From an uncultured Myxococcales bacterium (GTDB lineage: Bacteria; Myxococcota_A; Polyangia; Polyangiales; Houyiibacteriaceae): a DNA stretch of 55,519 nt. The notes beneath the pieces were generated by a model. The model worked only from the letters and a program-made list of their open reading frames with translations, had not been told where the DNA came from and did no database searches. The translations under genes and the position numbers were made by a program. The stretch is from positions 1 through 55,519 of the forward strand of contig CALCTH010000562.1 of assembly GCA_937893795.1 (NCBI GenBank), given 5' to 3'. Below, one piece after another: positions 41,275 through 53,225 of the stretch (positions are counted from its first letter, which is position 1; each line of letters begins with the position of its first letter).

Positions 41275-42783
41275 GTGGTGTACGGTGCCCGTGTGCGCTT
41301 CTTATCTTGCTTGATTTTGGGGGTGACGTGCGCGTGCCCCGCGTCCCTCGAGGGCGTCCCGCCGGATGCAGGTGGTGACGGAGCGGCCGACGCCAGCGCG
41401 GACGAAGGCTGGGACCTCGCGCCGGTCGTCGACGCGGCGACTTTGGGGCCCACCCTAATCGTCGAGCTGCGCGACCGCTTGGACCGACCCGTCGCCGGAC
41501 ATCCGGTCGCCGTGAGGCTCGGAGATCTCGGCGACGTTTGGCGAGGGGAGTCCGACGGCGCGGGGGAGGCCCGGTTCCTGGGCCTCTCGCTCGATGGTGC
41601 GGCCCTTCTTTCGCTCACGACCTACGAGCCGGAAGGCATCCCCGTTGGGGAGGCCGCCGAAGTTGGCGGCGTTTGGAGCGAGCCGCTCTTCTTGGCGGGC
41701 TCGCCGGAGGGTGACGACTGGCGTGTCCGCCTCGTCGTGGACGACTACTTCGCTCGCCCGACGGTGCTTCGCGGGCGCGTGCGCGGTGTGTCGGGGTTGC
41801 CACTGCCCCAGTTTCGGTTGACCGGGGGCGTTCTCTCGGGTGGCGCGGTGGACACCGGCCCGGACGGCACCGCCTTCAGCGTGGCCGCCGTGCAATGGAC
41901 CACGACGCTCGCACCCTGGATGGTGGTGAGCTTCACCGCCGAGGACCGCTTCGTGACTACCGCCGTACCCTGGCCTGCGGGCCTCCCCAGCGAACCGCAA
42001 ATGGTCGACATCCAGCTCCCGGACGCGGAGATGACGCCGGCCGAAGTCTCCTTCGAGACGCCGCGGATCGAGGAGGCCAACTGCGCCGTCACCGTGCGCG
42101 CTGCCGGTGTGGGGCTCCTGGGGCTGAGTCGGTACGCGCCATGCGACGGAGCCCTTCGGACGCTGACCTGGGTCCCCTTGGCGGGCACGCGCGACGGCAC
42201 GCTCTTCGTGCAAGGGGCCACCGGCGAGCCCCCCCGGCGGCGGACGCAGCGTGGCCTACCAGACGAAGTGTTCGCGGAGCTGCCGATGAGTCCCGAGCTG
42301 CCCTCGACGCCCCGTCTTGCGGGCAGCGAGTTCACCACCGCCGCGGAGCTTGCGGCAAGCCTGTCCACGGTCGAGGCGTCCGTAGTTCGAAGCCTCCGGG
42401 TGCGCGCGCCGCTCGTCACGCTCGACGTCCGTATCGGGTCTTCGCCCGGCCGCGTTCCGCCGCTCCCGGGTGAGCTCCGGTGGGCGCAGGTTCGGGAGCT
42501 CGCCACGAGCGACGCCTTCTTCGTCGCGGTGAGGGACACCAAGGTCTTCGCGGGCCCACCGGAAGCACCCACCCACTTCGCCTTCGCCGAGGACGGCGGC
42601 AGGAGCCTGTTGTCGGTCGACGAACGTGACGCCCGGACCCCCCGTCCCTCGCCCATACTCGCGCGCCACGAGTCGCATCGAGTGGCCCGGCGCCCTGGTC
42701 CGACTAGCGTCCTACCTGGGGCGACGAACGGGCCGACAGGGCTCCACGCCCAGCGTGCCGCGAGGCACGGGACTTACTTATGA
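41275..42783 (+). CDS. putative lipoprotein with carboxypeptidase-regulatory-like fold
   Basis: A 502-residue protein with start at one of three close GTG codons (41275, 41278 or 41293). The N-terminus is hydrophobic with two Cys (L-G-V-T-C-A-C-P) and an Asp/Ala-rich linker, so it is probably a lipoprotein, although the lipobox is imperfect. About residues 55-105 read like a carboxypeptidase-regulatory Ig fold (L-D-R-P-V-A-G-H-P-V-A). The rest is unrecognised. The last 60 residues lose the coding pattern of the earlier part (many Arg, Pro and His, no hydrophobic periodicity), as if the original stop had been lost. The TGA (42781-42783) overlaps the ATG of the next gene at 42780. Confidence 0.6.
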   Translation: MVYGARVRFLSCLILGVTCACPASLEGVPPDAGGDGAADASADEGWDLAPVVDAATLGPTLIVELRDRLDRPVAGHPVAVRLGDLGDVWRGESDGAGEARFLGLSLDGAALLSLTTYEPEGIPVGEAAEVGGVWSEPLFLAGSPEGDDWRVRLVVDDYFARPTVLRGRVRGVSGLPLPQFRLTGGVLSGGAVDTGPDGTAFSVAAVQWTTTLAPWMVVSFTAEDRFVTTAVPWPAGLPSEPQMVDIQLPDAEMTPAEVSFETPRIEEANCAVTVRAAGVGLLGLSRYAPCDGALRTLTWVPLAGTRDGTLFVQGATGEPPRRRTQRGLPDEVFAELPMSPELPSTPRLAGSEFTTAAELAASLSTVEASVVRSLRVRAPLVTLDVRIGSSPGRVPPLPGELRWAQVRELATSDAFFVAVRDTKVFAGPPEAPTHFAFAEDGGRSLLSVDERDARTPRPSPILARHESHRVARRPGPTSVLPGATNGPTGLHAQRAARHGTYL

Positions 42784-44324
42784 CGAAGACACGACTTCTC
42801 TTGGTGGCCGCGCTCGCCGTGGCCGCCGTCGCCTGCGGCGACGATGACGCGTCCACGGACACCGGGGCCCTCGATGCCGGCACGGAGTGCCCCGCGGGTC
42901 AGCTGCTGTGCGGGAGGGAGTGCGTCGACACGGGCGTCGACCCCTCGAACTGCGGCACCTGTGGCGCGGTATGCGGGGCCGGTGAGCTTTGCAGCGCCGG
43001 AACGTGCGCCCTCTCCTGCGGCGGAGGCACCACCCGGTGCGGCGAGCTCTGCGCCGACACGCAGCTCGACCCGGCGAACTGCGGCGGCTGCGCCGTGGAC
43101 TGCGCAGCCGGTGAGCTGTGCTCCATGGGCACCTGCGGCCTGAGCTGCGTCGGCGGCACGACGCGCTGCGGCGACGCCTGCGTCGACACCGCGAGCGATC
43201 CGGTGAACTGCGGCGGCTGCGGCGCCGCCTGTGCGCCCGGCGAGCTCTGCAGCGCGGGCGCCTGCTCACTGAGCTGCGGCGGAGGCAGCACCCAATGCGG
43301 CGACCGCTGCGTCGATACCATGAGCGATCCGGCGAACTGCGGGGGCTGCGACGCGGCCTGCCCGCGCGGGGAGCTCTGCCTGGAGGGCACCTGCGCCCAA
43401 GCGTGCCCGGCGCCGAACGTGGCGTGCGGCGACCGGTGCGTGGACACGGGCTCGAACCCGGACTTCTGCGGCGCCTGCGACGTGGCCTGTGCCGCCGGTG
43501 AGTTCTGCACGGACGGCGTCTGCGCGACCGAGTGCCCGGTACCGAACGTGGTCTGCGGTGACCGGTGCGTGGACACGGCTTCGAACCCGGACTTCTGCGG
43601 CGCTTGCGACGTTGCCTGCGGGTCCACGGAAGCGTGTTTGGCCGGGCGCTGTCTCCCGCTCGAGCAGCTCGACGTCCTCGTCTACTCCGACGACGAGACG
43701 CGCTTCGACGCCACCACGCATCCCGTCGTCGTCGCGGCGGCGGCCGTCGGCTTCGTCGATGTGACCCTCATCTTCGACGACGAGTTCGCCTTCGAAGCCG
43801 CGCGTCTGGCCGGAGACGTGGACCTGCTGGTCGTCGACGCGAGCCTCGCCATCCTCCCGGACGAGGTGCTGGCCGCCGCCGAGGCGCGCGCCCGTGCGGA
43901 GCTTCCGCTGGTCTTCAGCTACTGGAACCTCGACAACACGGACGCGGCGGAGACGTCCCTCCGCGCCGCGCTCGGCGTCACCACGCGCAGCTACAGCGTG
44001 GCCGAAGGCGTCTTCGTCACGGCGGGCGCGGACCCGAACCTCTTCACTTTCGAGGAGACGGTCACCTCGCCGATGGCGGCCACCGACCGCGTCGTCGACG
44101 ACGGCGACTATCTCGATCTCACGGGCGCGGGCGACGTGCTCTTCTCCGCAGGCGGCGCGGCCGGCAGCGACAACCTCGGCGTGCTCACCAACCGTCGCAC
44201 GTCCCTCGTGCTCGGCTTCCTCCTCGCGAACCTCGACGACAGCGACGTCGACGCGGACGGCATCGACGACGTCGACGAGCTGATGACCAACATCCTCGCG
44301 TGGTTCGCGGCGGGCCGGCCGTGA
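42780..44324 (+). CDS. lipoprotein with six tandem Cys-rich repeats and an alpha/beta C-terminal domain
   Basis: A 514-residue protein with lipobox A-V-A-C (Cys19) and an Asp-rich linker. Residues about 36-295 are six copies of a 43-45 residue unit typified by C-G-D-R-C-V-D-T-x-S-(D/N)-P-x-(N/F)-C-G-x-C-D-x-x-C-x-x-G-E-x-C-x-x-G-x-C, with eight or so Cys per unit. Residues about 300-510 are alternating alpha/beta ('LDVLVYSDDETRF', 'VTLIFDDEF', 'VDLLVVDASLAIL', 'RRTSLVLGFLLAN'), resembling a ThuA/glutamine-amidotransferase-like Rossmann fold; no catalytic triad is recognised. The ATG overlaps the upstream gene's stop (ATGA), so the two are probably co-translated. Confidence 0.8.
   Translation: MTKTRLLLVAALAVAAVACGDDDASTDTGALDAGTECPAGQLLCGRECVDTGVDPSNCGTCGAVCGAGELCSAGTCALSCGGGTTRCGELCADTQLDPANCGGCAVDCAAGELCSMGTCGLSCVGGTTRCGDACVDTASDPVNCGGCGAACAPGELCSAGACSLSCGGGSTQCGDRCVDTMSDPANCGGCDAACPRGELCLEGTCAQACPAPNVACGDRCVDTGSNPDFCGACDVACAAGEFCTDGVCATECPVPNVVCGDRCVDTASNPDFCGACDVACGSTEACLAGRCLPLEQLDVLVYSDDETRFDATTHPVVVAAAAVGFVDVTLIFDDEFAFEAARLAGDVDLLVVDASLAILPDEVLAAAEARARAELPLVFSYWNLDNTDAAETSLRAALGVTTRSYSVAEGVFVTAGADPNLFTFEETVTSPMAATDRVVDDGDYLDLTGAGDVLFSAGGAAGSDNLGVLTNRRTSLVLGFLLANLDDSDVDADGIDDVDELMTNILAWFAAGRP
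42885..43665 (+). repeat. six tandem 129-135 bp coding repeats
   Basis: DNA counterpart of the Cys-rich units in the lipoprotein at 42780. The units share phrases such as 'tgcggcgaccgctgcgt' and 'ggcgaactgcggc'. The last two units are most alike, suggesting recent duplication within the array. Confidence 0.7.
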
Positions 44325-44458: not shown

Positions 44459-45679
44459 ATGACGCACGTCCCGACACATTGGACCGGCATCGGTCTCCTC
44501 ATCGCCTCGTCACTGCTCGCCTGCGGGGAGGCGAACGAGCCTACTGATGGCCCCGGCGACGCAGATGCCGGTGCGATGGATGCAGGCACGAGGGACGCCG
44601 GGTCCATGGACGGCGGTTCGCTGGATGGTGCGCCGCCGGATGACGCAGGCTCGCCGCCCGACGCCGGGGGAACGCCCGACGAGCTGGTCGCAGCCATGCT
44701 CGACCTGGTCGATACCGAAGTGGACCCCAGCTACGTCTACGAGTTCGAGGGCGCCCGCTTCGTCCCGCCGGAGGGCAAGACGCTGCTCATCCTCGGGCAG
44801 ACCCTCGACGCGGTCGAGGAGCTCACCACGAGCTTCCCCGACGCGCCGACTCCCGGCGGCTGGTCGGCCTACTGGGGCATCCCGTCGATGGACTACGTGA
44901 CTCGCGAGACGACGAACGAGACGGGCGACCGGCACCACCATCAGGCCCTCGTGGAGCGATTCCCCAACACGGTGCTCCACAGCGGGATGTGGATGGTGGG
45001 AACGTGGGGCGTTGCCCAGCGAACGGTGGACGGTGAGTTCGACCCGGTCATCCGTGACTTCAGCACCTGGGCCAAGGCCGCCGCGCGCCCGATCTACCTC
45101 CGCATCGGCTACGAGTTCGACGGACCGCACAACGAGCTCGACCCCGCCACGTACATCGCCGCCTACCGCCGCATCGTAGACATCATGCGCGAGGAAGGCG
45201 TCCAAAACGTGGCCTTCGTCTGGCACTCCTTCGCCGCGCCGCCGGCGGGCGGGCGCCCCATCTCGGCGTGGTGGCCCGGCGACGACTACGTCGACTGGGT
45301 CGCCGTGTCCCTCTTCGGACAGCTCTACGCGAGGACGCCCGGACGCTGGGTGGACGCGGTCTTCGACTACGCGCGGGAAAAGCGAAAGCCCGTCCTGGTG
45401 GCAGAGGCGAGCCCGACCAACGGCATCAACCCCGGCAGCAACGCGGTCTGGGCCAGCTGGTTCGCGAAGCTCTTCTCGTTGAGCTACGCGCGGAACATCA
45501 AGGCCATCGCCTTCATCAGCCAGAACTGGCGCCGAAACCCCTCGAATGGCGTCACCTGGGAGGACGCGCGGCTGTCGAACAACCCGCTCGTCGGCCGGGC
45601 CTTCTTCGCCGAGACCAACCAGGACCGCTACCTCAAGCAGTCCCCCGAGCTCTTCGAAGAGCTTGGCTACACGCCCTAG
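44459..45679 (+). CDS. GH26-like (beta-mannanase-type) lipoprotein
   Basis: A 406-residue protein: signal with lipobox L-L-A-C (Cys22), a linker rich in D-A-G units up to about residue 75, then a TIM-barrel-like catalytic domain. Residues 'LRIGYEFDG' contain Glu219, placed as the acid/base after strand 4 (the usual GH26 motif is R-x-x-x-E-x-N/D-G), and 'VLVAEASPTNG' contains Glu316, the likely nucleophile. 'FVWHSFAAPP', 'WWPGDDYVDWVAVSLFG' and 'IAFISQNWRR' fit the surrounding strands. GH26 includes beta-1,4-mannanases and beta-1,3-xylanases; the substrate is not assigned. Surface display suggests scavenging of plant or fungal polysaccharide. Confidence 0.72.
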   Translation: MTHVPTHWTGIGLLIASSLLACGEANEPTDGPGDADAGAMDAGTRDAGSMDGGSLDGAPPDDAGSPPDAGGTPDELVAAMLDLVDTEVDPSYVYEFEGARFVPPEGKTLLILGQTLDAVEELTTSFPDAPTPGGWSAYWGIPSMDYVTRETTNETGDRHHHQALVERFPNTVLHSGMWMVGTWGVAQRTVDGEFDPVIRDFSTWAKAAARPIYLRIGYEFDGPHNELDPATYIAAYRRIVDIMREEGVQNVAFVWHSFAAPPAGGRPISAWWPGDDYVDWVAVSLFGQLYARTPGRWVDAVFDYAREKRKPVLVAEASPTNGINPGSNAVWASWFAKLFSLSYARNIKAIAFISQNWRRNPSNGVTWEDARLSNNPLVGRAFFAETNQDRYLKQSPELFEELGYTP

Positions 45680-46536: not shown

Positions 46537-46605
46537 CGACGGTCGTCGAGCGCGCCGTAGGTGTGCTGTCGGGCGACGCTCGCCCCGCAACACGGGAACG
46601 ACACG

Positions 46606-46986
46606 ATGACGATGTGGCTCTTGGCCGGCCTCGGCCTCTATCTCTTCCAGATCTACCTGCCGACGACGCTCTTCCTGCCGGCGGAGGGCGTCATGAACCA
46701 CCTGGGCGGGCGCGACGCGCTGCCGGAGCCGAGCAAGTGGGTGGGACGGTCTCGCCGCGCGCTCGCCAACATGCAGGAGAACCTCCCGATCTTCGCCACG
46801 CTCGGACTCCTCTGCATGGTGGTCCCAGGCGCGGACAGCGAGCTCGCGGTCCAGGGGGCCGCGGTGTTCGTCATCGCCCGCATCCTCTACGTGCCGGCCT
46901 ACCTCTTGGCCCTCACGGGGGTGCGGAGCGCGTTCTATCTGGTGGCCCTCGGGGGTCTCGGAGCCATGCTCGTCGCGCTCCTCTGA
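46606..46986 (+). CDS. MAPEG family membrane protein
   Basis: A 126-residue protein with four hydrophobic helices. It carries the MAPEG hallmark R-x-x-x-A-x-x-N-x-x-E-N-L-P-I-F (here 'RSRRALANMQENLPIF') followed by 'ARILYVPAYLLALTGVRS', which fits the R-x-x-Y-x-x-x-Y type element (membrane-associated proteins in eicosanoid and glutathione metabolism). The start is the ATG at 46606; the ATG-poor upstream frame is non-coding. Bacterial MAPEGs are often glutathione-dependent detoxification enzymes. The glutathione S-transferase at 17.6 kb may be functionally related but is far away. The divergent XRE gene is its likely regulator. Confidence 0.85.
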   Translation: MTMWLLAGLGLYLFQIYLPTTLFLPAEGVMNHLGGRDALPEPSKWVGRSRRALANMQENLPIFATLGLLCMVVPGADSELAVQGAAVFVIARILYVPAYLLALTGVRSAFYLVALGGLGAMLVALL

Positions 46987-47108
46987 CGCTGCCGCGACGG
47001 ACTCTCTCCTTGCCGCGGCCCGTCTTCCCGCGCGGGTTCGCCTGGCTTCACGGACGCTCCACACCTGCGCCCTAGCGTGGCGGTGGGCGGGGAATCGCCC
47101 GAGAGGAG

Positions 47109-48899
47109 ATGCCCGTGCCCCACGCTCACCCCCCGACGCTCACCATCTTGCTCGCGGTCGCCCTGCTCGCCGCCTGCGGCGAGGACGCGGCTCCGCTCGA
47201 GCCCGAGGACACGCGCTGCGAGGCCCCGCCGCTCGTGCGCACGACTGCGGCGGGCGTCGACTTCGTGCGCACGCCGGACGCCTGCTTCGCGGCGCTCCCG
47301 GACTGGCCCTACGCGCCGCGCTACGTGGAGCTCGACGGCCTCCGGCAGGCCTACGTGGAGGAGGGTCCCGAGGACGGACCCGTCGTGCTGCTGCTCCACG
47401 GGCAGCCCTCCTGGTCGTACCTCTACCGGAAGATGATCCCCGTGCTCGCCGAGGCGGGATACCGGGTGATCGCGATGGACCACCTGGGGATGGGCCGCTC
47501 GGACAAGCCGGTGGACATCGGGGCCTACAGCTACCTCGGGCACGGTGCGCGGCTCCTCGGCTTCATGGACGCGCTCGCTCTCGAGGACATCCACCTCTTC
47601 GTGCAGGACTGGGGGAGCCTCGTCGGGCTCCGCGTGGCGGGGCTGAACCCCGAGCGCTTCGCGCGCATCGCCGTCGGCAACGGCGCGCTGCCCGTGGTCC
47701 CGGCGGGGACGGAGCTCATCGCGCCCATCGAGGACCCGGACACGCCGGCGGCGCTCATGAGTCCCTTCGCCGCGGTGCCGGATCAGCAGGTGCCGTTCTA
47801 CGAGGGCGAGGACGGCTGCGACCCCCGTTTCCCGGCGGGCGATTTCTCCGAGGGCTTCGGGACCTGGGCGACCTACGCGATGCGGGGCGAGGACTTCCGG
47901 CCGAGCGAGGTCCTCGAGGCGCTCACCTGGTTCCCGCTGCCCGATGACGAGGAGTTGGCCTACGACGCGCCCTACCCCTCGCGCAGCTACATGGCCGGCG
48001 TGCGCTCGTTTCCATCGCTCGTGAACGAGCTCGGCGGAGCGAACGAGGAGGCCTGGGCGGGCCTCACGTCCTTCACGCGGCCCTTCTACACCATCTGGGG
48101 TGCCAACGACGCGGGCAACCAGGGCTCCTGCGAGGCGCAGCAGATCTTCGTCGACAACGTGCCCGGCGCTCGGGGCGTGCCGCACACCCGTGTGCCCGAG
48201 GCGGGGCACTTCCTCCAGGACGACCAGGGCGCCTTCATCGCGGAGCAGCTCGTGGCGTTCTTTGGCTTTCGGCCCTTGAGAGCGACGCCGCCGCCCTTCC
48301 GCTATTGCGAGATCCTCCTGGTGAATGGTGGCCCCGAGGGCGTCGCCGCGGACGTATGGGGGACGCAGAACGTGAGCGAGTGCCCGGCCGAGAGCTGGGA
48401 CGCGCTCGACCCCGACGAGGTGGCGGCAGAGAGCGGAGCGCTGGCCGCGCTCTTCAACGGTCCGAGGATTTGGCTCGCGCCCGGCGTCTTCGGGGAGGCG
48501 ACGGCCTTTCCCTCTCCCGAGCGCCGCACCTTCGGAGATCTCGAGATGCGGCTCCTCGCGAGCCTCTCCCTCGACCCGTCGCAGCTCGACCCGACGGCCG
48601 GGTCGACGCCCTACACGGAGAGCGACGTCCGCCGAAACACGGTGTTCCGCTTCGAGGCGGGGGCCGAGATCTACGAGCTCGAGGCGCCGGGCGGGATGCG
48701 CTACGTGATGCAGTCGCTCTCGCAGATCGTGGACGCGGAGCTCGCGCTCGAGGACCTGCCGACGCTCGGCGCGCGCCTGAGCCTCCCCGAAGGCTGGACC
48801 TACCGCGCGCGGGTGCTGGACGAAGCCCTCACGCTGGTCGCCGACGGCCTGGCCGTGGTGATCCAGGACGAGCTGACGAACACGTACCAGCGTCTTTGA
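47109..48899 (+). CDS. haloalkane-dehalogenase-like lipoprotein with an extra C-terminal domain
   Basis: A 596-residue protein. The signal has lipobox L-A-A-C (Cys23). Residues about 70-380 are an alpha/beta-hydrolase fold of haloalkane dehalogenase type: H-G-Q-P-S-W (His97 at the oxyanion turn), nucleophile Asp167 in Q-D-W-G-S, putative catalytic acid Asp334 in G-A-N-D-A-G, and His367 in E-A-G-H-F-L-Q-D. The D-W after the Gln is typical of the halide-binding dehalogenases. Residues about 385-596 form a further domain with 'FRYCEILLV', E-C-P-A-E-S-W-D-A-L-D and N-G-P-R-I-W-L, which I do not know as part of this enzyme class. A GTG at 47115 with AGGAG six bases upstream is an equally good start. 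Confidence 0.85.
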   Translation: MPVPHAHPPTLTILLAVALLAACGEDAAPLEPEDTRCEAPPLVRTTAAGVDFVRTPDACFAALPDWPYAPRYVELDGLRQAYVEEGPEDGPVVLLLHGQPSWSYLYRKMIPVLAEAGYRVIAMDHLGMGRSDKPVDIGAYSYLGHGARLLGFMDALALEDIHLFVQDWGSLVGLRVAGLNPERFARIAVGNGALPVVPAGTELIAPIEDPDTPAALMSPFAAVPDQQVPFYEGEDGCDPRFPAGDFSEGFGTWATYAMRGEDFRPSEVLEALTWFPLPDDEELAYDAPYPSRSYMAGVRSFPSLVNELGGANEEAWAGLTSFTRPFYTIWGANDAGNQGSCEAQQIFVDNVPGARGVPHTRVPEAGHFLQDDQGAFIAEQLVAFFGFRPLRATPPPFRYCEILLVNGGPEGVAADVWGTQNVSECPAESWDALDPDEVAAESGALAALFNGPRIWLAPGVFGEATAFPSPERRTFGDLEMRLLASLSLDPSQLDPTAGSTPYTESDVRRNTVFRFEAGAEIYELEAPGGMRYVMQSLSQIVDAELALEDLPTLGARLSLPEGWTYRARVLDEALTLVADGLAVVIQDELTNTYQRL

Positions 48900-49012: not shown

Positions 49013-50332
49013 ATGTCGAGCTCGTCCTGGAAGCGTCTCTTTCCGCCGGAGGAGCGGTTGCGTCGGCTCAAGGAATGGGACGCGCACGTCCGGCAGCAGG
49101 CGGGACGTACCTTCGTCTACGCGGGCTGGTGGTTCGTCGGCGGGCTCGGTCTCGGCTTCCTTGCGGACGTGCTCTTTCTGGGCGCGGACGATCCCGTGTG
49201 GATCCCGCGCGTGGGCGTGCTCGCGCAGATCGGCGTGCTGCTCGCGGGCATCGCCATGTTCCGCGTGTCGGCCACCGTCCGTGCCCATCCGCACCCGCTC
49301 TGCACGCTCTTCTCCGCGGTCGTCGCAGGGATCGGCGGCGTGGTGCTCGGGTCCCTCGGGGGCATGGACGGGCCGTACTTCTACGTCAGCTACCTGCTCT
49401 CGGCGACGGCCCTCGGGCTGCCCGCACACCTCGGCTGGCGCATCGGCTTCAACCTCGCCCTGCTCGCCGCCTTCTTCGCGACCTTCTTCGGTCTCCACCC
49501 GGAGCACGCCAACGTCCCGCATGCGCACGTTGCCTGGCTGCACCTGACCTGCATGAGCGTCGGCACGATCGTCTTCGGGCACGTGCTCCACCTGCAGGCT
49601 CGGGAGCTCTTCATGCACCGGGCGGCCGCCGAGCAGCGCGGCGACGCGCTCGTCGAAGAGGTGGCGCTCCGCACCGAGCGCCTCGTCGCGGTGACGGAGC
49701 GCGCCGAGCGCGTTCGCGAGGAGGAGCGCCAGGACATCGCCCGGCTCCTCCATGACGACATGGCGCAGCTCATCGTCAGCGCGCGCATCAACCTGGAGCA
49801 CCTCGAGCGCAGCGTGGACGCGGACCACGCGCGTGCGGACGTGCGCTCGCTGCGCCAGGTGGTCTCGCAGATGGAGCATTCGACGCGGAGCGTGGTCGGT
49901 GGCCTGCGCGCCGCGGAGCTGCCCTTCGAGGTGGCCGCGGAGGACCTGGTGGAGGCCTTTCGCGCCCTCGGCGAGCTCGCGATCACCTTGGAGCTCGATT
50001 GTGCGCACTCGGAGCCGGCGCGACCGGTGCGACACGCGGCCCTGCGCACGATTCAGGAGAGCCTCTCGAACGTGCTGAAGCACGCCGACGCGAAGCGCGC
50101 GACGGTCCGGGTGACGCAAAGCGGGGGCACGCTGATCGTCTCGGTGACCGACGACGGCCGTGGCCTCGACCCGGCGCGAAGGGCCGAGGGCTTCGGCCTC
50201 GAGGGAATGCGGGAGCGCGCGAGCTCGCTAGGGGGGTCGCTCTCGCTCTCGGCCGCGACGCCGCGCGGTACGGAGGTGCGCGTGGCCCTCCCGCTTCGGG
50301 CGCCGTCCGGCTCCCTGGGGTTCAGCGGGTGA
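49013..50332 (+). CDS. membrane sensor histidine kinase, NarL/HisKA_3 type
   Basis: A 439-residue protein. Residues about 25-200 contain about five to six hydrophobic helices. A coiled coil leads to E-R-Q-D-I-A-R-L-L-H-D-D-M-A-Q with phosphoacceptor His247, the HisKA_3 form H-(D/E)-x-x-(A/Q). The HATPase_c domain (about 340-430) has N-box 'ESLSNVLKHADAK', D-D-G-R-G-L and 'GFGLEGMRERA', with the NarX-type G-L-x-G-M-R-E-R. The ATG at 49013 is chosen; an in-frame ATG at 48968 is possible. The stop TGA overlaps the GTG start of the LuxR-type regulator, so the pair forms a two-component system. The signal is unknown. Confidence 0.9.
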   Translation: MSSSSWKRLFPPEERLRRLKEWDAHVRQQAGRTFVYAGWWFVGGLGLGFLADVLFLGADDPVWIPRVGVLAQIGVLLAGIAMFRVSATVRAHPHPLCTLFSAVVAGIGGVVLGSLGGMDGPYFYVSYLLSATALGLPAHLGWRIGFNLALLAAFFATFFGLHPEHANVPHAHVAWLHLTCMSVGTIVFGHVLHLQARELFMHRAAAEQRGDALVEEVALRTERLVAVTERAERVREEERQDIARLLHDDMAQLIVSARINLEHLERSVDADHARADVRSLRQVVSQMEHSTRSVVGGLRAAELPFEVAAEDLVEAFRALGELAITLELDCAHSEPARPVRHAALRTIQESLSNVLKHADAKRATVRVTQSGGTLIVSVTDDGRGLDPARRAEGFGLEGMRERASSLGGSLSLSAATPRGTEVRVALPLRAPSGSLGFSG

Positions 50333-50937
50333 TTCGTGTCTTCCTCGCCGATGACCACCCCGTCGTCCTTCAGGGCGTGAAGCGCGTTCTCGACCTCGAG
50401 GCGGACCTCGAGGTCGTGGGCGTCGCCGAGCGCGCCTACGCCCTCGCGGCGCGCGTGCAGGAGACCGGCGCGGACGTGCTGGTGCTCGACCTGGACATGC
50501 CCGGCATGGGTGGCGCGCGCACGCTCCGGAGGCTCGCGGCGGCCGGCGTCTCCGTGGTGGTCTTCAGCCACTACCCCGAGGGCGTCGTGCGTACCGACCT
50601 CCTCGCGGCCGGCGCCCGCGCCGTGGTCAGCAAGGAACGGGACCTCGCCTATCTGGCCGCGGTGCTCCGGGAGGTGGCCGCGGGCCGTGCCCCGGCGCCC
50701 GAGTCGCCGCCCGAGCTGCCGCCGCTCAGCGCGCGCGAACGTCAGGTCTTCGATGGCATCGCCCGAGGCATGCCGCTCAAGGCCCTCGCCGCGGAGCTGA
50801 ACCTCTCGATCAGCACCGTGCACACCTACGCGCTCCGCGTGCGCGAGAAGCTGAACGTGGCCACCAACGCGGATATCGGTCGCTACGCGGACCGCATGGG
50901 CCTCTCGCTCATCGGCTCGCGCGGCGAGCCCTCCTAG
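50329..50937 (+). CDS. LuxR/NarL-type response regulator
   Basis: A 202-residue protein starting at GTG that overlaps the kinase stop. The receiver domain (about 1-120) has A-D-D-H-P at the N-terminus, phosphoacceptor Asp54 in L-V-L-D-L-D-M-P-G-M-G-G, a Ser/Thr position in 'VVVFSHYPEG' and Lys in V-S-K-E-R. The HTH domain at about 138-195 has the LuxR pattern L-S-A-R-E-R-Q-V-F then 'LKALAAELNLSISTVHTYALRVREKL'. It is the cognate regulator of the adjacent NarL-type kinase, probably a transcription activator. A 12-bp hairpin follows the stop. Confidence 0.92.
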   Translation: MIRVFLADDHPVVLQGVKRVLDLEADLEVVGVAERAYALAARVQETGADVLVLDLDMPGMGGARTLRRLAAAGVSVVVFSHYPEGVVRTDLLAAGARAVVSKERDLAYLAAVLREVAAGRAPAPESPPELPPLSARERQVFDGIARGMPLKALAAELNLSISTVHTYALRVREKLNVATNADIGRYADRMGLSLIGSRGEPS

Positions 50938-50990: not shown

Positions 50991-51080
50991 ATGGATGCAT
51001 CGGCGTAGCGTGGCGTCCTGGGAGTACGGCGCTGCATGGCGCCGCTCACGGCCGCGCGACCGGCCCAGGAGGCAGCGACG

Positions 51081-53225
51081 ATGACGAAGAGGATGCGAAG
51101 GGGAGGGCGTATGGCTTTGGCCGCGCTGCTCGTGGGGAGCGCGTTGAGCGCGGGCGCCGCAGAGGCTCAGAACGTCCGCCTGGAGGCCTGGATGACCGAG
51201 ATGAGCGGAACGCTCGGCGGCGTCCCGCTCAACCGCATCGCCATGCCCGGAAGCCACGACGCGGGCACCTACCGCATTCACCGGAGCCCGGGATGGTCAG
51301 GTGGAAGGAACAGCGCCTGGCTGACCCGGCTCATGCGCTCGATCTCCGGCAACCCCTTCGAGGCGCAGCTCGTCGCGGGACTCTCCCGTGCACGCCAGGA
51401 GAGCGCGCTCAACGACGTGCAGGGTGCGCTCTGGGCGACGCAGAGCCAATCGATCGTTCGGCAGCTCGAGCTTGGCGTCCGCTACTTCGACTTCCGCGTG
51501 AGCTGGGATCCGGAGCAGCGAGCGTGGTTCCTCTATCACGGGACCTGGGTAGAGGCCGACGAGGCCTACTTCGGCCCCATGAGCCACTCGCTCGAGAGCG
51601 AGCTCCCGGGCATCGCGCGCTTCGCGGCGACCCATCCCGGGGAGGTGTTCGTCCTCCACCTTCGCAAGCTCAACGGCGGGGGGCGGGCTGAGCGCGTGGC
51701 GCTCTACCGTCGCTTCGACCAGCTCTTCCGTTCGAACGGTCGTTCGCGGCTGGCCCCGGGAGGGGACGGCGGGCTCTCGCCGTCGAGCCGGCTCCAGGAG
51801 TTCGTCGAGGCCGGCACGAACGTCGTCCTCCTCGACGACTATGGCACGCTCTCCGAGGCCGCGCGCGCGGTCACGGGCTCCATGCCGCAGCCGCGCATCT
51901 GGGGCCCGGCCTCCAGCTTCACCGCCGGCGTGAACGACTCGAACGGCTACGTGAACGCGCCGAGCTTCCGGGCGATCCTCGACCAGGTCGAGCGCACGCT
52001 GGGGGCGCGGGAGATGGCACCGGAGCCGACGACGTTCCAGGTCACGCCGGTCTTTCCGCCGGCCAACAACCTCAAGTATTGGGCGTCGGCGATCTACGAG
52101 CGCTACGTGCGGCGCCTGCCTGGCGGGAACGAGGTCAATCGCCTGCTTCAAAGCGTGCGCGTGAGCTGCCCCGGGGGGAGCCTCCCGGACCTCGCCACGG
52201 GCCAGTGCTTCCGCTGCCCGGGAGGCTTCGACCGGAACCCGCTGGTGGCGCCGAACGCGGACGGCGCGTGCACCCAGCCGCCGCGGGAGGAGCAGCGGGC
52301 CGGCGTCCCCCGCGGGGCACCCACGGGCCTCCTCCGCACCGATTGCCCGCGTGGCGCGATCCTGAACATCGCGGACGCGCGCTGCTATGCCTGCCCCTCG
52401 GGCTTCGCGAAGAACAACCTGCAGACGGACATGCGGCAGGGGAACGCCTGCCTCCGCCACTCCCTCGGCTCGACGCGCGCCGCGGAGCCCGTGGGGCGGG
52501 CGCGGGGCATCGGCTCGGACCGCTACTTCGACCCGCAGGCGTCGTTCCTGACCATCGGCCGGGGCCTCAACGGGGCGCTGATGCGTCGGCTGGGGCGCTG
52601 GTCGGCGAACGAGTCGCTGCGCTCACGGCTCAACGTGCTCATGGTGGACAACGTCGCCATGGCCCGAGAGCCCGGCGACACGCGGGTGGATCCGAGCCTC
52701 ATGCAGGCCATCGTGGCGATGAACCGCGGCACCGTCGCGCCGGCGCCGCCGCCGCTTCGCGTGGCGACGGAGCCGGGGAGCGGACCCGCGCGAACGAACC
52801 GGCTGATCATCGGCCAGAACGAGGCGAACTATGGCCGGCACCGGCTCGTCGGAGGGTTCACGCCGGACCCGCACACCATCGGGAACGTGCGGAGTGGGGG
52901 CAGCGAGGACGTGGCGACCATGGGCCTTCCGCCCAACTGCCGCGGTTTCGCGACGCGCCAGCCGGACGTCGTGCTCGACTATTCGCAGGCGCGGGGCTTT
53001 TTGCGCTTCTACGTGCAGGCCGAGGGGGACACGGTGCTCGTCATCAACGACGCCCGCGGCAACTGGCACTGCAACGACGACACGGCGGGCCGGAACCCGC
53101 AGGTGGACATCCGGAACCCGCCCGCCGGCCACTACGACATCTGGGTCGCGAGCTACGCGCGGGGGCAGAACACGACGGGGACGCTCCACATCACCGAGCT
53201 CACGAGCCGGAGCGTCCAGCCTTAG
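51081..53225 (+). CDS. secreted PI-PLC-like phosphodiesterase with C-terminal beta domain
   Basis: A 714-residue protein. The ATG at 51081 has GGAGG at a good distance and begins a signal sequence ending near A-E-A-Q. Residues about 35-330 look like a phosphatidylinositol-specific phospholipase C fold: M-P-G-S-H-D-A-G-T (His59), 'YFDFRVSW' and L-Y-H-G-T-W (His153), the two His usual in catalysis. The end of the barrel is 'LLDDYG' and later strands. A middle Cys-rich segment (about 360-470) has 'CPGGSLPDLATGQCFRCPGGF', and a second I-L-M-V-D-N-like strand follows near residue 530. About residues 610-714 is a beta domain with 'DTVLVINDARGNWHCNDD' and Y-D-I-W-V-A-S-Y. Release of phospholipid headgroups is inferred; the substrate is unknown. 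Confidence 0.78.
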   Translation: MTKRMRRGGRMALAALLVGSALSAGAAEAQNVRLEAWMTEMSGTLGGVPLNRIAMPGSHDAGTYRIHRSPGWSGGRNSAWLTRLMRSISGNPFEAQLVAGLSRARQESALNDVQGALWATQSQSIVRQLELGVRYFDFRVSWDPEQRAWFLYHGTWVEADEAYFGPMSHSLESELPGIARFAATHPGEVFVLHLRKLNGGGRAERVALYRRFDQLFRSNGRSRLAPGGDGGLSPSSRLQEFVEAGTNVVLLDDYGTLSEAARAVTGSMPQPRIWGPASSFTAGVNDSNGYVNAPSFRAILDQVERTLGAREMAPEPTTFQVTPVFPPANNLKYWASAIYERYVRRLPGGNEVNRLLQSVRVSCPGGSLPDLATGQCFRCPGGFDRNPLVAPNADGACTQPPREEQRAGVPRGAPTGLLRTDCPRGAILNIADARCYACPSGFAKNNLQTDMRQGNACLRHSLGSTRAAEPVGRARGIGSDRYFDPQASFLTIGRGLNGALMRRLGRWSANESLRSRLNVLMVDNVAMAREPGDTRVDPSLMQAIVAMNRGTVAPAPPPLRVATEPGSGPARTNRLIIGQNEANYGRHRLVGGFTPDPHTIGNVRSGGSEDVATMGLPPNCRGFATRQPDVVLDYSQARGFLRFYVQAEGDTVLVINDARGNWHCNDDTAGRNPQVDIRNPPAGHYDIWVASYARGQNTTGTLHITELTSRSVQP

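Follow-up and report, generated by a model that had tools for sequence, protein, structure and literature searches.

The fusion gene and its surroundings

The window, that is the whole 55,519-nt stretch of DNA analysed here, carries at 47109..48899 an open reading frame of 596 aa which joins a predicted lipoprotein leader, a hydrolase domain of the haloalkane dehalogenase (HLD) type and a C-terminal domain (CTD). The features, all on the forward (+) strand, are the following:

47101..47108, +, Shine-Dalgarno (SD)-like GAGAGGAG, seen in the sequence; start candidates are ATG 47109 or GTG 47115
47109..48899 (stop codon included), +, whole HLD-CTD fusion gene; 596-aa frame, full-length homologues in L044, L060 and L133
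47109..47177, +, signal peptide ending in the lipobox LLAAC; Cys23 (codon 47175-47177) predicted to be lipidated
47259..48275, +, alpha/beta-hydrolase domain of HLD-I type including its cap, residues ~51-389; NCBIfam NF002043, PDB 4mj3, 6f9o and DhlA
47607..47612, +, nucleophile Asp167 and first halide-binding Trp168; aligned to D-W of HLD-I structures including DhlA
47694..47846, +, long cap insertion, residues ~196-246; alignment of hydrolase relatives
47865..47867, +, second halide-binding Trp253 (DhlA W175); aligned to HLD-I structures and relatives
48108..48110, +, catalytic acid Asp334; same alignments
48207..48209, +, catalytic base His367; same alignments
48297..48896, +, CTD of an undescribed family, residues ~397-596; homologue alignments, without match to known families
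48306..48308, +, Cys400 (RYCE motif), which would pair with Cys425 in the proposed disulfide; Cys/export comparison
48381..48383, +, Cys425 of the CP motif; CTD alignment and Cys/export comparison

The lipobox is present, and Asp167, Trp168, Asp334 and His367 lie in the translation exactly where the initial annotation had placed them, as does the block 'RYCEILLV...CPAESWDALD...NGPRIWL' in the C-terminal part. Since the SD-like GAGAGGAG directly abuts ATG 47109, GTG 47115 may be the actual start, two residues later and leaving the lipobox unaffected. The hydrophobic N-terminal leader ends in LLAAC with Cys23, and the product is likely an envelope lipoprotein, both lipidation and location being predicted. 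The earlier naming as a surface lipoprotein is borne out as to the lipobox, while 'surface' overstated what a lipobox by itself can tell.

Codon-position GC was 0.73/0.48/0.95 in the hydrolase half and 0.72/0.49/0.92 in the CTD half. This near equality across the joint, together with the same architecture in other assemblies, makes a frameshift artefact or mis-assembly unlikely. Judged from its sequence, 47109..48899 is a single real gene, chance being excluded by the 300-bit hydrolase score, the CTD homologues and codon GC.

A MAPEG-family membrane protein gene (46561-46986, E 1.9e-17) lies on the same strand ~120 bp upstream, and its co-transcription with the fusion gene is possible. Downstream, on the same strand, follow a histidine kinase (HisKA_3/HATPase_c, 49013-50332) and a LuxR-type response regulator (50329-50937). 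Divergent OmpR-like response regulators adjoin two relatives (L002 and L133). A two-component system was considered as a standard neighbour and rejected: present by the fusion gene, L002 and L133, it was no rule among the other relatives checked. Further frames include two lipoprotein-like ones, at 42780-44324, of which six stretches match the plant STIG1 Cys-rich family (E 3.2e-30), and at 44459-45679, with a weak match to glycosyl hydrolase family 26 (E 2e-4, just above the cut-off). The exported-looking frame at 51036-53225 (729 aa) had no Pfam match at E 1e-3; its N-terminal start resembles a PI-PLC X domain. No gene with an evident role in dehalogenation was found beside the fusion gene in the window.

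The hydrolase domain and its long-cap relatives

HLDs act by SN2 attack of an Asp while a Trp pair holds the halide, followed by hydrolysis via the His and the acid; in other HLDs, the second halide-binding residue is Asn instead of Trp. Their usual architecture, typical rather than defining, is a single domain with a short cap and no anchor. The fusion protein departs from it by its lipobox, long cap and CTD.

The reading as dehalogenase-like was borne out: the best alignments of the hydrolase are to HLD-I enzymes, and it scores 300.1 bits with the NCBIfam model for haloalkane dehalogenase (NF002043/PRK00870), above the curated cut-off of 265. Pfam Abhydrolase_1 also matches (E 1.6e-21), while epoxide hydrolase-named models are absent (0) from the 22 NCBIfam matches, of which the HLD model is the best. 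The nearest solved structures are all HLD-I (4mj3, 6f9o, 5esr, 2xt0 and DhlA 1b6g), and alignment to them showed the complete HLD-I catalytic pentad, as defined in PMC10503415, in D167, W168, W253, D334 and H367. Comparison with DhlA hence supplied the second halide-stabilising residue, W253, which the initial annotation had left unnamed. Among aligned relatives D167-W168 is invariant save in the distant paralogue L007, and the D334 position is occupied by Glu in L168. The hydrolase is likely of HLD-I type by sequence.

In a tree of 43 hydrolases, the fusion's domain fell in a 20-row long-cap clade with 100/100 support and a long stem (0.69), throughout which both halide Trp are kept. The cap insertion measures ~34-57 aa in long-cap relatives, 46-57 in the fusion's nearest group and 8 in most short-cap relatives, and the clade mostly carries HGQP, whereas HGEP is the motif in characterised HLD-I enzymes. 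Compared with the latter, of which it shares the fold, cap domain, pentad D-W-W-D-H and best sequence matches, the fusion protein differs by HGQP, a cap ~45 aa longer, the lipobox and the CTD, where DhlA and the other solved enzymes have ~300 aa, HGEP and a short cap. The D-W motif and triad also occur in other alpha/beta-hydrolases; with the replacement of HGEP by HGQP and the large cap insertion, this means that the substrate may differ.

The branch containing the fusion consists of exported proteins, with lipoproteins in Myxococcota (L002, L134-L138) and Sec-type leaders in L167/L168. The closest homologues bear lipoprotein or Sec leaders whether a CTD is present or absent, LLAAC-like leaders occurring in L002, L044, L060 and L134-L138. 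Most exported relatives of the branch stop after the hydrolase. This is so for L002, a stand-alone lipoprotein HLD of the same genome with a hydrolase 69% identical to that of the fusion, and for L134-L138 (~60% identical): both share the lipobox-like leader and long cap, and both differ in that the chain finishes without CTD. Lipid anchoring is thus a property of the branch and nothing special to the fusion, contrary to the earlier view that a lipid-anchored fusion was in itself unusual. We also observed a tandem pair of HLD-type genes, one with a lipoprotein leader (L185 4187-6408), and, near exported HLD genes in two genomes, look-alike DJ-1/PfpI-like membrane proteins (L042 2998-3843 and L187 7312-8145).

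As an HLD-I enzyme, the protein would work either within the periplasm or on the outer membrane. Asp167 would displace the halide of a haloalkane-like substrate by SN2 attack, Trp168 and Trp253 would hold the leaving halide, and His367/Asp334 would activate water so that the alcohol is released. The long cap may shape the substrate pocket and select a larger or different substrate.

The main rival to this scheme keeps the HLD-I scaffold and assigns it another natural reaction, on an epoxide, lactone, ester or envelope lipid, the pentad being inherited and dehalogenation absent or a side activity. Such a shift has a precedent in HLD-III, which includes members with other reactions, e.g. the beta-lactone decarboxylase OleB (PMC10503415). 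It would suit the long stem of a clade that is partly exported and mostly HGQP, with cap insertions of 35-57 aa, as well as the lack of an evident dehalogenation-role gene adjoining the fusion gene. Against it, the two halide Trp, needless for other reactions, are kept clade-wide, and it is the HLD cut-off that is passed, with no epoxide hydrolase model matched. We consider another reaction possible but rather doubtful, and retain dehalogenation as the preferred activity.

The C-terminal domain: distribution, fold and cysteine pair

The block which the initial annotation had placed from residue 385 onwards is real, although the homologous domain begins only at ~397. The expectation that it was no ordinary known domain held: searches of Pfam, NCBIfam, PHROGs and PDB sequences returned no match. 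Weak profile matches to p97/CDC48 (E 0.06) were dismissed as chance.

Homologues numbered dozens, with E down to 1e-61. By tblastn the CTD was found in eight plasmid records, where the listed genes are annotated 'hypothetical protein', and at 79 genome loci in Myxococcota, Pseudomonadota, Actinomycetota, Chloroflexota, Acidobacteriota and Bacteroidota; a locus in one cyanobacterial MAG may be mis-binned. Within its own phylum, 51 of 379 genomes gave matches, some with weak E-values. The organism is apparently a myxobacterium, several genomes of this phylum having loci that match those of named Myxococcales/Kofleriaceae records (e.g. L108 and L026, L109 and L029). CTD lipoproteins also occur on two IMG/VR viral contigs of 67 kb and 29 kb (L103, 4001-4564, and L104). 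The genome under study carries stand-alone copies of both halves, the hydrolase L002 and the CTD lipoprotein L003, the latter 52% identical. In a 53-row alignment the motifs RYCE, CP..W, NGPR, YVMQSY.Q, LP.GW and QD.L.N.Y stood out, and all are intact in the fusion. These homologues show the CTD to be a widespread family of at least six phyla, whose stand-alone members are usually exported; the earlier guess that it might exist alone thus proved right for plasmids, for genomes of at least six phyla and for the organism itself.

Stand-alone members (L003 and proteins of Polynucleobacter, Ancylobacter, Anaerolineae, Streptomyces and Bradyrhizobium) are ~31-58% identical to the CTD over ~200 aa, and the exported ones have the Cys pair in common with the fusion. 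They differ in the absence of a hydrolase domain and, for some Actinomycetota members, of a signal peptide. Most CTD genes have no adjoining HLD, and the domain stands alone far more often than it is fused. No constant neighbour or operon partner of stand-alone CTD genes appeared in the loci compared, which suggests a role probably wider than serving a hydrolase. TetR accounted for 6 of 92 neighbouring proteins, and sulfatase, metallo-beta-lactamase and DJ-1-like genes were only occasional. In Polynucleobacter and relatives (L036-L070) the stand-alone gene lies near groES-groEL in 19 loci, a proximity that is probably genus synteny. Elsewhere the CTD is joined to unrelated, exported-looking N-terminal regions (L088, L089 and L083), without Pfam match for L088 and L083, and another CTD protein (L114 1381-2535) combines Asp-rich repeats with a tail at its C-terminus that looks like a MYXO-CTERM sorting signal.

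The AlphaFold2 model of the CTD was confident and mostly beta (pLDDT 90.7, pTM 0.84). Foldseek comparison of this model with PDB and BFVD gave nothing significant: the best E was 0.045 for PDB and 0.026 for BFVD, at TM values no higher than about 0.15. Within the scope of PDB and BFVD, the modelled fold is a candidate for a new one among solved structures. The full-length model (12 rows; pLDDT 64, pTM 0.48) was too poor for domain orientation or contact.

Both Cys400 and Cys425 were kept in nearly all leader-bearing CTD members (77 clear, 11 unclear; exception L022), and 10 of 10 members without signal peptide had Gly at the Cys400 position, export being called by a hydrophobicity rule and not by a trained signal-peptide predictor. 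Seven C/C members were scored leaderless: the fusions L044, L060 and L105, the long proteins L083, L088 and L089, and L115. In all but the last, leaders would lie upstream of the region that the leader test covered. On the CTD tree the Cys pair and export each change four times, in step, although this amounts to 2-4 independent pairs, too few for significance. The tracking of export by the Cys pair suggests that C400 and C425 may form a disulfide with a structural role outside the cytoplasm.

Pairing of the two domains, proposed working and meaning

Besides 47109..48899, HLD-CTD fusions were found in three genomes: L133/L105, L044 (Myxococcota) and L060 (Gammaproteobacteria MAG). The fusion L133/L105 is 65% identical over residues 25-595, and L044 comes from a Myxococcales MAG. 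An Anaerolineae MAG (L042) has the two parts as lipoprotein genes next to each other on the same strand, the CTD gene first and the HLD gene 24 bp after it. All four resemble our protein in having both parts, exported; their HLD identity ranges over 43-71%, and in L042 the parts are two separate genes.

In the CTD tree, the CTD of the fusion grouped with the stand-alone L003 of its own genome as well as L105; the L044, L060 and L042 domains fell elsewhere. Constrained trees mildly rejected the grouping of the 47109..48899 fusion, L105 and L044 (p-AU 0.032), were borderline for all four fusions together (p-AU 0.051) and rejected this set plus L042 (p-AU 0.0003); the tests concern long branches and range from weak to borderline. 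In the hydrolase tree L060 grouped with L042, apart from the Myxococcota group, at a weakly supported fork. The scatter of fused CTDs and the place of L060 make more than one fusion event likely, as read from these trees. Co-occurrence across the 379 phylum genomes gave weak support to the pairing: a CTD was present in 4 of 7 genomes with close exported HLDs and in 37 of the 379 phylum genomes (p 0.002; 0.013 without the fused-only genome), kinship being ignored and the groups read off post hoc.

Taken as a whole, we favour with some reserve a hydrolase of HLD-I type that is anchored in the envelope and carries an undescribed accessory domain, its activity and the role of the CTD being predicted from sequence. 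The CTD, of which we are less sure, would be a disulfide-stabilised, mostly beta module beside the exported hydrolase, which may bind substrate, a ligand or an envelope component, or stabilise the protein. The partnership would be covalent in 47109..48899 and would involve a separate neighbouring lipoprotein in Anaerolineae.

Alternatively, the CTD could do the main job of the protein, in envelope ligand binding or sensing, with the hydrolase as one of several domains that can be joined to it. Its mostly stand-alone, seldom fused occurrence and its presence on the unrelated exported N-terminal regions of L088/L089 and L083 would fit; yet the sole identifiable partner domain is an exported HLD-I-type hydrolase, met in separate lineages and as an adjacent gene, and we hold this alternative to be unlikely. 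An accidental gene fusion or assembly error with the CTD as passenger, which the lack of a CTD in close exported HLDs of the same genome and family might suggest, is most improbable, since three other assemblies show the same architecture, codon use hardly changes at the joint and the CTD motifs are intact.

Returning to the accessory-domain reading, we tentatively extend it as follows: the CTD would be a new, mainly extracytoplasmic family of unseen, disulfide-held fold, which in part serves HLD-like enzymes, exported and with a long cap, by which a natural envelope compound is dehalogenated or otherwise hydrolysed, with repeated fusion. This extension is conceivable rather than probable.

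Few alpha/beta-hydrolases have been studied as well as HLDs (HaloTag, bioremediation), and the present enzyme is an exported, long-cap, multi-domain variant of this known kind. For the CTD family there appears to be no description in Pfam, NCBIfam, PHROGs and PDB, and among the titles and abstracts listed in searches of open-licence papers none described HLDs that are lipoproteins or fused to a CTD. A current mining workflow, EnzymeMiner 2.0, discards HLDs that have additional domains or for which membrane helices are predicted (PMC13355053), so that exported, multi-domain ones are easily missed. If active, the fusion enzyme would place dehalogenation outside the cytoplasm. With a recurring enzymatic partner the function of the CTD family becomes testable, and the repeated pairing with HLDs is the first functional lead for this family.
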